Shown one piece after another: positions 307 through 19,198 of a stretch of DNA of 23,415 bases. Source of the stretch: a virus; IMG/VR virus record IMGVR_UViG_3300048091_000189, positions 1-23,415 of that record, one strand, 5' to 3'. Numbering within the stretch: position 1 is the stretch's first letter; each line of letters opens with the position of its first letter. The position numbers and the translations under genes are program-made. The notes beneath the pieces were generated by a model. That model did not search any database. It saw only the letters and a list, made by a program, of their open reading frames with translations, and was not told the origin of the DNA.

Positions 307-1485
307 TCACGCCTGCTTCCTCTTCAATATTGTCAGCACCGGCCCACGCGAATCGGTTGCTGATACCATATTTGCAGCTTCAATCAGATGCCCTAGCTCA
401 GCGCCCGAGTAGTGACTGGTGATGCTGCCGTTCTTATGACCCAGAAGAGCCTTTCGGTCTTCCTCGGTTACGCCCGCCGCTCGAAGGCGACGGCCAAACG
501 TGTGCTTCAAATCGTGAATCCTGATCGACAGATAGCCAGGGTGAGCGGGGCGAAGGTTTTCCTCCTGCCAGAGTTTCGCCGCTCTCACTCGCGCCTTCTT
601 CCAAGCCGAGTCGTTCATCCGGTGCATTGCGTTGCCGTTGTAAGGAAAAACCCATTCCTTGCTCAGGCCGCGCTGCTGATCAATGATCGACTTGGCTACG
701 CTGTTCAGCACCACCAGGCGCTCGTCGCCATTTTTCACGCCAGACCGTTCGTGTCTGCCGCCAAAGTCAGCCGGGATCAGGAACACACTGGTACCGAGTT
801 CCGGCACCGAAATCTCCCAGTCCCACCTCAGCTTGCAAACTTCCTGCTCGCGACAACCGGTGTTCACTTTGAACAGCGCCATCGTCTGCAGGTGGGCCGG
901 CAACTCCCCGAAAAGAATCGACTGCTCCTCCCACGACATCGGATAGGGCTTGCGACTCGATTTCTTCTCTTCCAGCTTCGTGAGCATTGGCACGCTATCC
1001 AGCCACGGCCGTCGCTCATCGTCTCGCCACTTCCTGGCACACAACGACAAAACCCGAACTACACGCTCGATCGAGATATTCACCGTTCTGTTGCTCACGC
1101 CTTTCTTCACCTTGCCATCCGGCAGCGTTTTTGTCGCCAACCTGTCCTTTATGAAAGGCCCAAGGGCCTGGTCATCAATATGGGTCAGCGGCATGTCGCC
1201 GATGAATTCGTCCAGCTGTGAAAGGTGGTGAGCCGAAAGCTTGATCGAAGGCTGATCCTTGAATTCGACCAAAAAACGCATCGCCGCATCCCGCCACGTT
1301 CTGACCTGCCGAACGCCGTAGACCTTCTCCTGCCGGATCTGCTCCAGTCGATGTATCAGGTAGCGCTCTGCTTCTTGCCGGTCACTTGTTCCAGTAGATT
1401 CGTAAAGTCTTTCGCCGTTGATCTTCTTGTCGATATGCCAGAGACCTTTCCTTTGGGAGAGGCCTGTGATCGTTTTTCGCGCCAT
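307..1485 (-). CDS. int: Phage tyrosine recombinase (integrase)
   Basis: This 392-residue protein catalyses site-specific integration and excision between attP and the tRNA-Pro attB. The N-terminal arm-binding and core-binding regions cover about residues 1-175. The catalytic domain shows Arg212 in NTGCREQEV, a candidate beta-hairpin Lys251, His324 in HDLKHTF, His350 in LLGHK and the nucleophile Tyr359 in SHYSG. The second conserved arginine (HxxR) is a lysine here (HDLK), a variant I believe occurs in related phage integrases. The ATG has AAGGAG seven bases upstream. The gene overlaps the upstream reverse-strand gene by 130 bases, so expression of the two is probably coupled. Confidence 0.97.
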   Translation of the reverse strand: MARKTITGLSQRKGLWHIDKKINGERLYESTGTSDRQEAERYLIHRLEQIRQEKVYGVRQVRTWRDAAMRFLVEFKDQPSIKLSAHHLSQLDEFIGDMPLTHIDDQALGPFIKDRLATKTLPDGKVKKGVSNRTVNISIERVVRVLSLCARKWRDDERRPWLDSVPMLTKLEEKKSSRKPYPMSWEEQSILFGELPAHLQTMALFKVNTGCREQEVCKLRWDWEISVPELGTSVFLIPADFGGRHERSGVKNGDERLVVLNSVAKSIIDQQRGLSKEWVFPYNGNAMHRMNDSAWKKARVRAAKLWQEENLRPAHPGYLSIRIHDLKHTFGRRLRAAGVTEEDRKALLGHKNGSITSHYSGAELGHLIEAANMVSATDSRGPVLTILKRKQA

Positions 1486-2235: not shown

Positions 2236-2612
2236 TGCGCTGAAGGAGAGGTGGCTGCAATTGCGGTGGGCCCTTGGGTTGGTGGTTCATTGTCGTGATC
2301 GCATGTAGCAGTACAGTTAGGGGAATAGGCGAGGGAAATTATGGGTAATCCCACTGTGTCGTCGATCGAATAGCAAGGCTCGGTTGTCTATGCCAGTCAA
2401 TGGCGGACATCCACATTCGCAGTGTGGCAACTCTAGAAGACTGCAGCGACGAGGCTCCAGCCATTGGCGGTGATGCTTAAGTTGTGCCAGCGTGCTTTCT
2501 CCCGTAACTTATCAAGGTTTCCGTGGTTAAAATAGAACGTAATGGCTGATTCTTGCGGCTAAATGTTACAAGCTAGTTTCTCAAGTTTTTGACCTATCAT
2601 TAAGGAGATCAG
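2236..2612. other. Intergenic stretch upstream of the protease gene
   Basis: I find no convincing gene in these 377 bases. A+T content rises towards the right end, marking the edge of the cargo. A TAAAAT hexamer at 2528-2533 could be a -10 element for the rightward protease pair, but no good -35 lies at the correct distance. A weak CCACA/TGTGG hairpin lies near 2410-2428. Confidence 0.5.
2601..2612 (+). promoter_or_regulatory. Strong ribosome binding site of the protease gene
   Basis: TAAGGAG is followed by a short A/T/C/G spacer and the ATG at 2613. This near-perfect Shine-Dalgarno fixes the start of the protease and indicates that the cargo pair is well translated when transcribed. Confidence 0.75.
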
Positions 2613-3260
2613 ATGGACCATTTTACTCAGCGCGTAGTCTTGATCGGAAAGATAGCGCCCGATAGCGTAACTTTATTGGGTACAGGTTTTTTTGTCGGTA
2701 CAGAAGGACTGCTAGTTACTTCTCGGCACGTTGTTGGTAATGACGCTAATGGAATAGTGGTTATTGCGCCGAATATCAACTCGTTCAATCAATACCAAGA
2801 TGTTAGTGATAGGTCGTGCAAGCCCATAAACGCCACGATAGTAGAAGTCAATCCAATTGCTGATATTGTGTTACTTAAGATTGATGCGCGGGTACAAGAT
2901 GTTACGGAGCTTGGTACGCTAGATGAGGTAGAAGTCGGCGAAATGCTTGATATTGTGGGTTTTCCTCATTGCGTAGATGGTCGCAGAGTTCTTACTTATC
3001 AATCTGCTACGATCGGTGCTAAGGTTCTATTGGAAGCCAGTTCGGTGAAAATTAAGCACGCTGTAATAAATTCGCAGACGCGACCGGGGCAGTCGGGATC
3101 TATGGTTTTTAGTAAAAGATTGAATAAAGTTGTCGGCATGCTGTCTGGAACTTATATTCCGCAAGGCGGCGGTACAATTATGGTGATGGGAATAAATCCA
3201 GCTGAACTTAACCAGACAAGTCATATTTTGTCTGCGGAGTATATAAGGGAGATGGTTTGA
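2613..3260 (+). CDS. Trypsin-like serine protease (cargo)
   Basis: This 215-residue protein has the features of the chymotrypsin-fold family: GTGFFV near the N-terminus, catalytic His39 in LLVTSRHVVG, Asp84 in NPIADIVLLKI and Ser161 in RPGQSGSMV. There is no signal peptide or membrane segment and it starts almost directly with the protease core, so it should act in the cytoplasm, unlike DegP-type periplasmic enzymes, and it has no PDZ domain. The next gene starts on the last base of this one (TGATG), so the two are translationally coupled. The region is richer in A+T than the phage core and lies against the direction of the early operon, as expected for acquired cargo. The substrate is unknown; the coupled partner is the first candidate. 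Confidence 0.85.
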   Translation: MDHFTQRVVLIGKIAPDSVTLLGTGFFVGTEGLLVTSRHVVGNDANGIVVIAPNINSFNQYQDVSDRSCKPINATIVEVNPIADIVLLKIDARVQDVTELGTLDEVEVGEMLDIVGFPHCVDGRRVLTYQSATIGAKVLLEASSVKIKHAVINSQTRPGQSGSMVFSKRLNKVVGMLSGTYIPQGGGTIMVMGINPAELNQTSHILSAEYIREMV

Positions 3261-3691
3261 TGGGCTCTAGGGTATTCGCTTTTAGTGGTGAGGAAATACT
3301 AGGTTCTCTTAAGCCATATCAGAAAGGTCTAGTGGCTGAATTACTTGTTGGACATGATGAAGAAACCGCGGCTAAAATTTGGCTGTCCTCTACCGGGCCA
3401 TTGGATCTACGTAGGTTTGGAGGATTGCCAGAGCATGGCAGTGACGCCTTCTTTCAGCGATTTAAAGCGGAGTTTCGCGCTTTCGTTTGTGGCGGTGAGC
3501 GTTACAACGACGAACGCAATGAGTTGTTTAAAATTGCGGAGCCAGTCGCAAGATATGTCGTCACCGCCATTAGTGTAGCTGTAGCATCGACTCTGGGGAT
3601 TGCCGTAGGCCTAGTAGTTCCTGCTGTGGCCCTTTTGCTAAAGGTGGTAGGTAAACTGGGGGTAAATGCGTGGTGTGAGATCAATCCTTAA
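3260..3691 (+). CDS. Protease-coupled protein with C-terminal hydrophobic segments
   Basis: This 143-residue protein has a polar, charged N-terminal part (1-92) and a long hydrophobic stretch at about residues 98-131 (VARYVVTAISVAVAS, then GIAVGLVVPAVALLLKVV), enough for one long or two short membrane helices. A TTG codon lies just before the ATG, but the ATG overlapping the protease stop by one base is the natural start. I recognise no named family. Small proteins encoded next to trypsin-like peptidases occur in bacterial conflict systems, and a membrane-active protein held in check or released by proteolysis would fit, but nothing in the sequence proves this. Confidence 0.7.
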   Translation: MGSRVFAFSGEEILGSLKPYQKGLVAELLVGHDEETAAKIWLSSTGPLDLRRFGGLPEHGSDAFFQRFKAEFRAFVCGGERYNDERNELFKIAEPVARYVVTAISVAVASTLGIAVGLVVPAVALLLKVVGKLGVNAWCEINP

Positions 3692-3765
3692 AGCTCCCTA
3701 TGTCGTGTTTGCGTTTAGTAGGTCTGCTGCATGATTGAGGCACATACAAGCTCTTTTTCGCCTCT

Positions 3766-3797
3766 AACGCCGGCTCAGCGAGGCGGCGTTTTCATTT
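3766..3797 (+). terminator. Terminator of the protease cassette
   Basis: AACGCCG (3766-3772) pairs with CGGCGTT (3784-3790), with CTC/GAG continuing the helix beyond a G-G mismatch and a three-base loop. The stem is followed by TTCATTT. It lies 75 bases after the stop codon of the membrane-segment gene and closes this rightward unit. Confidence 0.65.
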
Positions 3798-3837
3798 GTG
3801 AGTGGGAAGGCGCAGGCGATTCAGCCCCGGCGGATTT

Positions 3838-4076
3838 TTAAGGCGAATAGGCTACAGATGTGGAGTACTTCGTTGGTATGTTTGACCAGCCCCGCGACAA
3901 TGCTCCTATTGATGATGTCCCGCCATCCATGTTCTGAACAAGCCCTTGGCAGCGCTTCAGGGTAAGCTGGTCGGTCATTTCGCCGTATTGCATTTCCCAT
4001 GTCGGATGGTGGTTGCGGACTTGCTTCTTGGGATAGCTGTCGAGAAAGATGCCATGTAGTGGCCGCGTTCGGCCAT
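3838..4076 (-). pseudogene. Frameshifted remnant of a small leftward early gene
   Basis: Two adjoining leftward frames read as one protein if a single base is restored near position 4049. The first gives MAERGHYMAS, the second FLDSYPKKQVRNHHPTWEMQ, then YGEMTDQLTLKRCQGL and on to a TAA at 3838, about 79 residues. The second frame has the GC-rich third positions of the surrounding phage genes, while the competing frame does not. I do not recognise the family. It lies between two + strand cargo units and on the strand of the early operon, so it is probably an original operon gene damaged when cargo arrived. Confidence 0.4.
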
Positions 4077-4257: not shown

Positions 4258-5178
4258 ATGAAACGGGACAAAATGATCGAGGCAACGATCTGGGCTATTT
4301 GGTGGCTGGTTGTCGGCGGTGCCAGCTTGTGGGTGATCGTCGGTTCAATTGGATATTTCAATAAATCGGGATGGCTGCCTAGCGAGGCTGCTGGGTGGGC
4401 ACAGGCAATAGGTGCAGGTGTGGCTATAGTTGTTGCGTCTTTCATTCCGATGTGGCATGCAAAAGTTGCTACGAGAGAGAAACAACGCAATTTACTTGGG
4501 GTTGTACGTGTTTTATCAGATGAAGCTATGGAGAGCCTTTGGTTATTAACTAATAACTTCATTTATCCGCACAAAGAGCAAAGGATGATGAGGGAGTATC
4601 TATATCACAAGAGGGATCAGGATTGGCCTGGGCTTCTCGATGCTATAAATAAAATACCAATTTCTGAGCTTCCTCCCGCTAGCGCTAAAGTCCTCGGCTG
4701 TTTGCGCGACGCGGTCGCGTATGGCTTGGCAGTAGCAACTGATTTGCCAAAATGGGTGGATCGCAGCTATTCCCAGCCAGACGTGGTTATTGCTCTCCGG
4801 GCAAAACGGGATATTTTAACACTGTTTCGTGCCAGCTTGCCGCATATTGATGGAGTTTCCGTCTCTGGAAAGGTGGCCGCTCAACGCCGTGGTGAGTTTG
4901 AGGAAAGGAGTCGTCCCGTTTCAGAGCCCTATGCAATCGATGGAGTGAAAGTGTTCCGGAGATATGTTTGGGATAATGGCGTAGCAGTCGTTCCATTAGC
5001 GGTCTATATCCAATGTTTGTTTCCTTACGATAATTTTGAGTGTGCGAGTGAAGCCTTCGGAGCAGAGGGTAATTGGAAAACCTTCGAGGAGGCTGAGAAC
5101 TTTGTCGTTCAGAAAGCAAGCACGATTATCTGGAATAACTACGATTGGCAGGTTTACTTCAAAACTTTATTAAGGTAG
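4258..5178 (+). CDS. Two-TM membrane protein with cytoplasmic domain (cargo, unknown function)
   Basis: This 306-residue protein has two hydrophobic N-terminal helices (about residues 10-33 and 48-66), then a mainly soluble 240-residue region starting with basic residues, which places that region in the cytoplasm. No catalytic motif stands out; the C-terminal part is rich in aromatic residues. The ATG is preceded by AAAAGGA. Base composition is lower in GC than in the early operon and the gene runs against it, ending nine bases from the convergent methyltransferase stop. Such lone rightward genes in a leftward phage operon are usually lysogenic-conversion or defence cargo. I do not recognise a family. 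Confidence 0.7.
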   Translation: MKRDKMIEATIWAIWWLVVGGASLWVIVGSIGYFNKSGWLPSEAAGWAQAIGAGVAIVVASFIPMWHAKVATREKQRNLLGVVRVLSDEAMESLWLLTNNFIYPHKEQRMMREYLYHKRDQDWPGLLDAINKIPISELPPASAKVLGCLRDAVAYGLAVATDLPKWVDRSYSQPDVVIALRAKRDILTLFRASLPHIDGVSVSGKVAAQRRGEFEERSRPVSEPYAIDGVKVFRRYVWDNGVAVVPLAVYIQCLFPYDNFECASEAFGAEGNWKTFEEAENFVVQKASTIIWNNYDWQVYFKTLLR

Positions 5179-7244: not shown

Positions 7245-7293
7245 AGGGGATCCTCGCCGGGCTATAGTGGCTTCGTCGTTAAAGGAGATGCGC

Positions 7294-7953
7294 ATGCGAA
7301 TTTTTCTTGGGGTATTAGGGTTTTCGATATTCGGATCTGCGGTAGGGTTAGGCCTTTGGCTTTTGGGCAGTGGCAAGCTTTCAGGCGCTGAGTTCGTCGC
7401 GTTCGTGATCTCGTCTACGGTAATTGCAGGAATAGTTTCCTTTGCTCCTGAAATTCAGGAGTTTTCTGTGGCGGGCAATGTTGTTAAGTTGCGGGAGGTC
7501 AAGAACGATGCGATAAAATCGATTGAAGTTCTAAAGCGATCCCAGATCGAATTGCTTCGATTAATGCTTCGAACAAAATCTTTTATAATAAGAACTTGGT
7601 GTCAAAATCCAGATAAACCCGCCATTGACGCTGATTTCTGGGACATCGTGGCAGAGATAAAGCGAATTGAAGCTGTTAATGTTGTGAAAGCTGAGTTAGT
7701 GGCTTGCATAGACAGGATGCTTCCAGAGCTTTATCTGGTCGCCATTGGGCAACCTTGTCCGTGGCGAGAGGGATTCTGGATACATAAAGATATTGCCGAT
7801 GTGGCTGCGGATGTATTAGATCCTAAAATGCTCTCAGAAACTTCAAAGCTTCTCGAACATGATGATGAATCAATTTATAAGAATTTTGCTAAGTTGCGAA
7901 TACTAGAGATGAAAAGATTATATGAGTTGAAGGATTCTCTGTCGGCAAACTAA
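7294..7953 (+). CDS. Two-TM membrane protein with helical cytoplasmic domain (cargo, unknown)
   Basis: This 219-residue protein has two N-terminal membrane helices (about 3-25 and 32-52) and a helical, charged C-terminal region. AAAGGAG lies six bases before the chosen ATG; a longer frame to 7207 would run into the divergent methyltransferase start and has no ribosome site. It is A+T-rich and overlaps the stop of the next leftward gene by four bases. The architecture, two N-terminal helices then a soluble domain, is like that of the 306-residue protein on the other side of the methyltransferase, though I see no clear sequence similarity. Function is unknown; phage-borne exclusion or defence is possible. 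Confidence 0.7.
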   Translation: MRIFLGVLGFSIFGSAVGLGLWLLGSGKLSGAEFVAFVISSTVIAGIVSFAPEIQEFSVAGNVVKLREVKNDAIKSIEVLKRSQIELLRLMLRTKSFIIRTWCQNPDKPAIDADFWDIVAEIKRIEAVNVVKAELVACIDRMLPELYLVAIGQPCPWREGFWIHKDIADVAADVLDPKMLSETSKLLEHDDESIYKNFAKLRILEMKRLYELKDSLSAN

Positions 7954-18982: not shown

Positions 18983-19198
18983 ATGCCTCGAATTCACCGG
19001 CAGCCAGGGCAGCCCTAGGGAAGGCCTGGACGTCGATAGCCGGATAGTGCGACGCACGGAATCAACCCCGGCAGCCCGCGCACTCTGACCTCACATGCTT
19101 GTGGAGTGGCGCGAGACTGGATCAGCGAGATCGATGCAAAGGGGCGTCGACGTTGAGAAGGTCTTCGGCCGACAGCTCGAAAAGACGAGCGCACCTAT
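18983..19198. other. Non-coding spacer between terminator and hicB end
   Basis: No complete gene is seen. One rightward frame near 19040-19160 reads like a protein fragment ending in ARDWISEIDAKGRRR but has no start codon in range, and may be a remnant of an original late or nin-region gene displaced by HicAB. Confidence 0.35.

Follow-up and report, generated by a model that had tools for sequence, protein, structure and literature searches.

The locus raises the question of what a trypsin-like protease gene and the small gene that overlaps its stop codon are doing together in the cargo region of a prophage, and whether they form a defence module. The whole stretch of DNA analysed, referred to here as the window, is a viral record of 23,415 bp and carries repressor and recombination genes in addition to a tRNA-Pro and an integrase. 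Nucleotide comparison revealed that its DNA is similar to that of Pseudomonas phages. The two genes are referred to as M35A (protease) and M35B (partner), after the family to which they are assigned below, and L002 is a second viral contig that carries them. The features of the locus are as follows.

151-227, tRNA-Pro, adjoining the integrase gene
307..1485, minus strand, prophage tyrosine integrase (Phage_integrase, E = 6.9e-13), the left edge of the cargo slot
2518..4009, stretch common to the window and L002, 84% identical (blastn)
2600..2612, plus strand, ribosome-binding site region of M35A (AAGGAG), from the sequence
2613..3260, plus strand, M35A protease gene, 215 aa; ATG at 2613, stop codon at 3258-3260
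2727..2729, plus strand, codon of the catalytic His39, kept in 55/55 relatives
2862..2864, plus strand, codon of the catalytic Asp84, kept in 54/54 relatives covering the site
3093..3095, plus strand, codon of the catalytic Ser161 (RPGQSG motif), kept in 55/55 relatives
3260..3691, plus strand, M35B partner gene, 143 aa; ATG at 3260-3262
3407..3424, plus strand, M35B residues 50-55, T-x-x-F-G-G motif, from conservation in a low-confidence model loop
3548..3658, plus strand, M35B residues 97-133, hydrophobic two-helix segment, from hydropathy, conservation and model helices
3766..3794, plus strand, intrinsic terminator hairpin AACGCCG-GCTC-AGCG-AGG-CGGCGTTTTC, conserved in L002 and paired in the fold of 3692-3810

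M35A, whose translation begins MDHFTQRVVLIG, and M35B are encoded on the same strand and overlap at TGATG (3258-3262), such that the ATG of M35B shares the A of the M35A TGA. An earlier note on this DNA had placed the start of the partner on the last base of the protease, and this reading was correct. Purine-rich ribosome-binding sites were identified 5' of both starts. The pair is A+T-rich, as also noted before, with 45.6% G+C compared with 56.1% in the rest of the window; only 7 of 447 sliding windows of the same size were as low. The terminator ascribed to the pair was borne out by a G+C-rich hairpin with a T run that is conserved in L002, although a consensus terminator scanner did not list it. 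A promoter scan of the window revealed no candidate above chance.

The pair occupies a slot of a Pseudomonas-type prophage, with the tRNA-Pro/integrase end on one side and the early genes on the other, in agreement with the cargo position proposed for it. The integrase end of Pseudomonas phage SC_8_H2H8_2017 (L005) is closely related to that of the window, and the equivalent slot of this phage (6812-9901) contains a reverse transcriptase gene (RVT_1) and genes for two Lcl_C-type proteins instead of M35; this cargo looks like a diversity-generating retroelement and the slot like a cargo hotspot. Two other cargo-like genes of the window lie on the same strand as the pair and encode proteins with a hydrophobic N-terminus, one at 4258-5178 with no family match and one at 7291-7953 that matches phrog_8083 (function unknown). 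A Proteo-phage-1 RNA (RF03044, 77 bits) was identified at 18998-19076 (plus strand). The approximately 200 bp past the terminator (3810-4009) are still similar to L002 and are perhaps the remnant of a gene on the minus strand.

Family searches identified the pair, with near-certainty, as a copy of PDC-M35, a two-gene phage-defence candidate (PDC). M35A matched PDC-M35A (PDLC04593) over its full length (E = 1.1e-88; PADLOC-DB v2), and M35B matched the PDC-M35B models PDLC04594/4595/4596 (E = 4.9e-44/1.8e-35/6.2e-15; PADLOC-DB v2), with the PDLC04594 match covering residues 5-141. No family was matched by M35B in Pfam. The earlier note had stated that the partner fits no family, which the PDC-M35B match overturns, and had suggested an undescribed two-gene defence module; judged from sequence, the pair is a well-supported candidate for such a module, but it was already catalogued. 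A paper that used this database release describes PDCs as putative systems without experimental validation, obtained from guilt-by-embedding (PMC10855318). A literature search did not return the name PDC-M35 or any paper on its mechanism or testing. PDC-M35 is thus listed but mechanistically blank, and the pairing, co-evolution and mobility data come from the present analysis.

The catalytic residues of M35A lie in the motifs TSRH39VV, PIAD84IVLLK and RPGQS161GS. All three aligned with PF13365 Trypsin_2 (E = 1.1e-15; Pfam) and were conserved wherever covered in 55 relatives, confirming the complete set previously read from the sequence. The protein has no N-terminal hydrophobic signal, also as described. 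An AF2 model of M35A (pLDDT 85.7), made like that of M35B with rows from plasmid records left out, matched the HtrA-type catalytic domains of MucD, HtrA1 and DegP in a fold search (Z ~20-22), and weak sequence similarity to DegP/DegQ/HtrA was observed. M35A shares with HtrA proteins an S1-type protease domain with a catalytic triad; their PDZ domain and export signal are absent, and its 215 aa comprise the protease domain only. PADLOC also revealed weak similarity of M35A to RT-Protease XI (E = 3e-14) and to the HamA protease part (E = 2e-5). M35A is therefore a predicted stand-alone cytoplasmic trypsin/HtrA-type serine protease. A trypsin-type Arg/Lys specificity was considered and set aside, as the near-invariant Gln155 stands where trypsin has Asp189, an equivalence inferred from the S1 motif by hand alignment.

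M35B combines a polar N-domain with a C-terminal hydrophobic segment, as originally described; the best 19-aa Kyte-Doolittle window of the C-terminal segment had a mean of 2.3 compared with 0.3 in the N-domain. The hydrophobic segment (approximately residues 97-133) was kept in all full-length M35B relatives, with Pro121 invariant and Gly113 and Lys132 near-invariant. The AF2 model of M35B (pLDDT 85, pTM 0.82) is all-helical. Its N-domain is followed by a poorly predicted loop (pLDDT 68 for block 41-50 and 53 for block 51-60), by two hydrophobic helices (97-112 and 116-133) and by a last, short helix. Within the poorly predicted loop, otherwise variable in sequence and length, the motif T-x-x-F-G-G/A was conserved (F in 37/42 and G in 37/42 partners). 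A conserved motif is unusual in a loop of variable length, and we propose T-x-x-F-G-G as a candidate protease recognition site, which would be a natural place for a cut.

Fold searches with M35B returned no convincing match, only globin/Bcl-2-like and other folds at Z < 4. Pore formation by M35B is for this reason a guess, and a Bcl-2-like or colicin-like pore is not claimed. The profile searches and structure predictions called for in the earlier note thus gave a family for both proteins and an HtrA-type fold for M35A, but no convincing fold for M35B. The partner had been judged too short for a gasdermin, and its 143 aa, its all-helical model and the lack of a gasdermin match in Pfam and PADLOC scans agree with this. 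No nuclease match was found for the window partner in Pfam, PADLOC or other profile scans. Pfam domains of the effector-associated (EAD) and trypsin-co-occurring (Trypco) conflict systems were found neither in the window partner nor among the matches listed (25 of 32) for 43 partners at E<=1. A Microcoleaceae genome encodes a 161-aa protein (L080, 359-844) that is laid out like M35B in its C-terminal part (hhalign probability 75%), with no protease gene within the contig piece examined; small membrane effectors of this kind perhaps form a wider superfamily.

Relatives were collected using a degenerate hand-made pattern around the catalytic serine (V-x-N-x-Q-x-RPGQSG). The pattern gave 8 matches in viral contigs, all true relatives. 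In 84,980 species genomes it matched 54 places; 44 of them were true relatives, and the other 10 were chance matches and excluded. True loci by pattern numbered 53, window and L002 included, and two plasmid copies (Priestia and Klebsiella) bring the protease set to 55. The pattern counts too few of the diverged members, and the prevalence given here is therefore a minimum. A second pattern (VGFPH...GR) returned mostly unrelated loci; single-protein scans of the viral contigs revealed one close relative only, and an automatic alignment scan found the same single viral locus and none in the genome contigs. In phage records the protease had DegP-like matches only and the partner had no match, and no M35 match was found in E. 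coli genomes. The protease relatives span about nine phyla. A strong M35B match was present in 6 of 62 genomes of one cyanobacterial family and in 1 of 296 genomes of a Bacteroidota order. M35 was single-copy in 15/15 carrier genomes searched and absent from 14/14 control genomes.

The earlier note held that proteases found mostly without the partner would speak against a two-gene module. Partner sequence was present directly downstream of the protease in all 51 loci with continuing sequence, which favours a pair. The partner was detected by profile in 49 of these loci; in the others it was frameshifted (L010) or fused by a deletion that joins the protease to the C-terminal part of the partner (L054). 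M35B started -4 to +4 nt from the end of M35A in all but one of the 49 profile-detected loci, the exception being L042, in which both genes are disrupted. The distance matrices of M35A and M35B were correlated over 44 complete pairs (r = 0.88, compared with <=0.17 in 1000 label shuffles), and the two trees were concordant, with the same clades in each. Pseudomonadota, Bacteroidota, Bacillota, Actinomycetota, Spirochaetota, Campylobacterota and Cyanobacteriota were intermixed in the trees; the contigs that carry the members from Planctomycetota and Chloroflexota (L039, L071) are cut. Comparison of the window with L002 revealed 86% (M35A) and 83% (M35B) protein identity and a dN/dS of ~0.21 (M35A) and ~0.28 (M35B), indicating purifying selection.

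L002, an otherwise unrelated contig that bears an integrase, has only 2518-4009 in common with the window, and thus the pair entered two different prophages as a 1.5-kb cassette. In four other prophages (L007, L008, L012, L058) the pair lies ~475-510 bp from a P2-type portal gene. Some M35 loci were near tyrosine integrases, and the Priestia and Klebsiella copies are plasmid-borne. In Pallidibacillus (L053/L083) the pair directly follows hsdMSR, and in an Actinomycetes MAG (L063/L084) it is enclosed in a type I restriction operon, with HsdS upstream and HsdR downstream; in a Clostridia MAG (L065) it adjoins HsdR. Most sampled neighbourhoods were no obvious defence island. We sought a constant third gene in the M35 neighbourhoods and found none; the genes upstream of the pair vary (HTH, Fic, acetyltransferase, phosphoesterase, HicB-like). 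PADLOC neighbour tallies, in which kinase models dominate, were left out of the evidence. Taken together, these data establish that the protease and partner of M35 form an obligate pair that co-evolves and is mobile, and that the catalytic residues are intact.

Two individual loci are described here in their own right. The Klebsiella plasmid (L004, 3573-4743) carries a divergent M35 pair with an intact protease and a partner that ends at approximately residue 107, cut by transposon/integron DNA upstream of an aadB cassette. In Shewanella fodinae (L024, 4360-7640), a tyrosine integrase resembling that of an integron is encoded upstream of the pair in the opposite orientation, with a few short ORFs on the strand of the pair in between, which suggests that the pair is carried as a gene cassette.

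A variant form was found in six Microcoleus/Tychonema-type genomes, in which M35B is ~191-198 aa long. In L032, L037, L064 and L066, the added length consists of a tail that is the C-terminal two-thirds of a YefM antitoxin, and the next gene overlaps it and encodes a YoeB-type toxin of intact length (YoeB_toxin, E = 7e-11 for L064 and 8e-11 for L032; Pfam). PhdYeFM_antitox was matched by 4 of 43 partners (E = 7.5e-6 for L064 and 9.8e-4 for L037, both below the gathering score), with the L064 tail aligning to positions 36-71 of 74. In L027 and L036, the tail begins in the same YefM-like way and then differs, and a ParE-like toxin is encoded by the gene that overlaps it (L027 toxin against Pfam ParE_like, E = 7e-14). 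The lost YefM end persists downstream in L027, indicating that the first antitoxin-tail/toxin cassette was interrupted by insertion of a second one. Genome G004 also contains an ordinary 78-aa YefM with 81% identity to the fused tail, and a YoeB-like frame begins behind it; this comparison identifies the replaced part as the N-terminal DNA-binding part. Compared with the canonical YefM in L088, this part is absent from the fusions, with M35B in its place. The fused tails were under mild purifying selection (dN/dS ~0.33-0.46 where measurable). A limited literature search found no description of an M35B-antitoxin fusion. The fusions suggest protease-gated control of exchangeable outputs; they could also stem from a single event in which the pair landed by chance in a yefM gene, without functional coupling.

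The reading that we prefer, tentatively and at somewhat less than an even chance, is built by analogy: infection would activate M35A, which would cut membrane-anchored M35B and release a toxic output. The N-domain and C-terminal hydrophobic hairpin would place M35B in or on the inner membrane. During infection M35A would become active and cut M35B, perhaps at the TxxFGG loop between the N-terminal helices. In the common form, the hydrophobic C-terminal part would then act on the membrane, causing depolarisation or arrest and hence abortive infection. Where M35B is fused to an antitoxin tail, as in some cyanobacteria, this tail would be disabled by the same cut and the neighbouring YoeB/ParE-type toxin set free. 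Cleavage of M35B by M35A, its trigger, the membrane damage and the antiphage effect are all steps that we infer. Cleavage is favoured by known systems that combine a trypsin-like protease with a pro-effector, together with the weak similarity of M35A to the HamA protease part and RT-Protease XI. HamM-type pro-nucleases are cut by a protease fused to HamA, and the gene trees of that pair are similar (PMC12799240); bacterial gasdermins are activated by proteolysis (PMC13236601). Against the preferred mechanism, neither protein has a sensor domain, which leaves the trigger unexplained. A broader and rather doubtful reading is that M35 is a general protease-gated switch, in which the output carried by M35B can be exchanged: in most bacteria it would be a membrane-active hairpin, and the M35B of filamentous cyanobacteria would bear an antitoxin tail restraining a YoeB/ParE-type toxin. 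Active M35A would destroy or release this tail, giving a protease-triggered toxin-antitoxin system and abortive infection.

A serious rival, possible though on the whole unlikely, reverses these roles. M35A would be the executioner and M35B a membrane-bound regulator (inhibitor and/or sensor) that restrains a destructive protease until infection, for example through membrane disturbance, frees it to cut host or phage proteins. Strict pairing and co-evolution suit an inhibitor as well as a substrate, and a small partner, membrane-anchored by its hydropathy, beside a protease without its own sensor domain fits this arrangement. However, intact M35A is encoded beside a frameshifted M35B in L010 and a truncated one in L004, so free M35A is apparently tolerated, although these are two cases only and could reflect decay or misreading; the antitoxin tails of the cyanobacterial variant, moreover, are attached to M35B and not to M35A. 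Intact proteases beside broken partners and antitoxin tails on M35B thus argue for M35B as a restrained output over a restraint, on evidence that is thin, coming from two broken copies and one cyanobacterial lineage.

Superinfection exclusion, in which M35B at the membrane would block phage DNA entry or receptor function and the protease would serve for maturation only, appears distinctly unlikely. Prophage cargo encoding a small membrane protein under purifying selection would suit it, but many contexts are not prophages, some copies lie inside restriction operons, and growth arrest is an output better suited to the cyanobacterial toxin-antitoxin fusions. We give similarly little credence to an addiction-like stabilisation or stress module of mobile elements without an antiphage role. 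M35 does occur on plasmids, in prophages and beside integrases, with type II antitoxin tails in some variants; its recurrent siting in or beside restriction operons and the PADLOC phage-defence listing speak against this role, and its usual two-gene form has no recognisable antitoxin. An ordinary HtrA-type quality-control protease with an incidental neighbour is barely credible, for although the fold and the weak similarity to DegP/DegQ/HtrA would suit one, M35A has no signal peptide or PDZ and is single-copy in the 15 carriers searched and sporadic in distribution, and strict M35B pairing and mobility contradict the housekeeping role that the earlier note had named as a possible refutation. 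Candidacy as a defence module is favoured by the strict pairing, concordant trees, catalytic triad, selection, toxin-antitoxin fusions, and restriction-operon, prophage and plasmid contexts.

The antitoxin-tail fusion and the swapped second cassette constitute a natural experiment, which predicts that M35B is the substrate of the protease and holds the output in check. If this is true, M35 would be a compact, sensor-less two-gene form of protease-activated cell suicide, to be placed beside the gasdermins and pro-nucleases, and a protease-gated variant would be added to the toxin-antitoxin systems.

Compared with the PDC-M35 entry of PADLOC-DB v2, which comes without a mechanism, the window copy showed no difference: both proteins match end to end, and the gene order and overlapping stop and start are alike. 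M35A shares the protease domain fold of HtrA/DegP/DegS proteases (Z ~20-22) but, unlike them, has no PDZ or export signal, is mobile and is always paired with M35B. The cyanobacterial variant resembles the YefM-YoeB type II toxin-antitoxin system in its C-terminal antitoxin part and overlapping toxin gene, and differs in that M35B replaces the N-terminal part of YefM and a protease gene lies upstream. Like the nuclease-protease pairs of Hachiman, AVAST, Lamassu and DRT systems (PMC12799240), M35 combines a trypsin-like protease with a dedicated partner, has similar gene trees for the two and is spread over defence contexts. In contrast to HamM pairs, M35A is free-standing, encoded upstream and attached to no sensor enzyme, and the partner is a 143-aa predicted membrane protein rather than a metallo-beta-lactamase nuclease. 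M35 also differs from bacterial gasdermin/CARD-NLR systems, since M35B is all-helical in its model and matches no gasdermin family, and no NLR/CARD gene is nearby; however, the logic proposed for M35, a trypsin-like protease activating a membrane effector, is the logic of those systems (PMC13236601).
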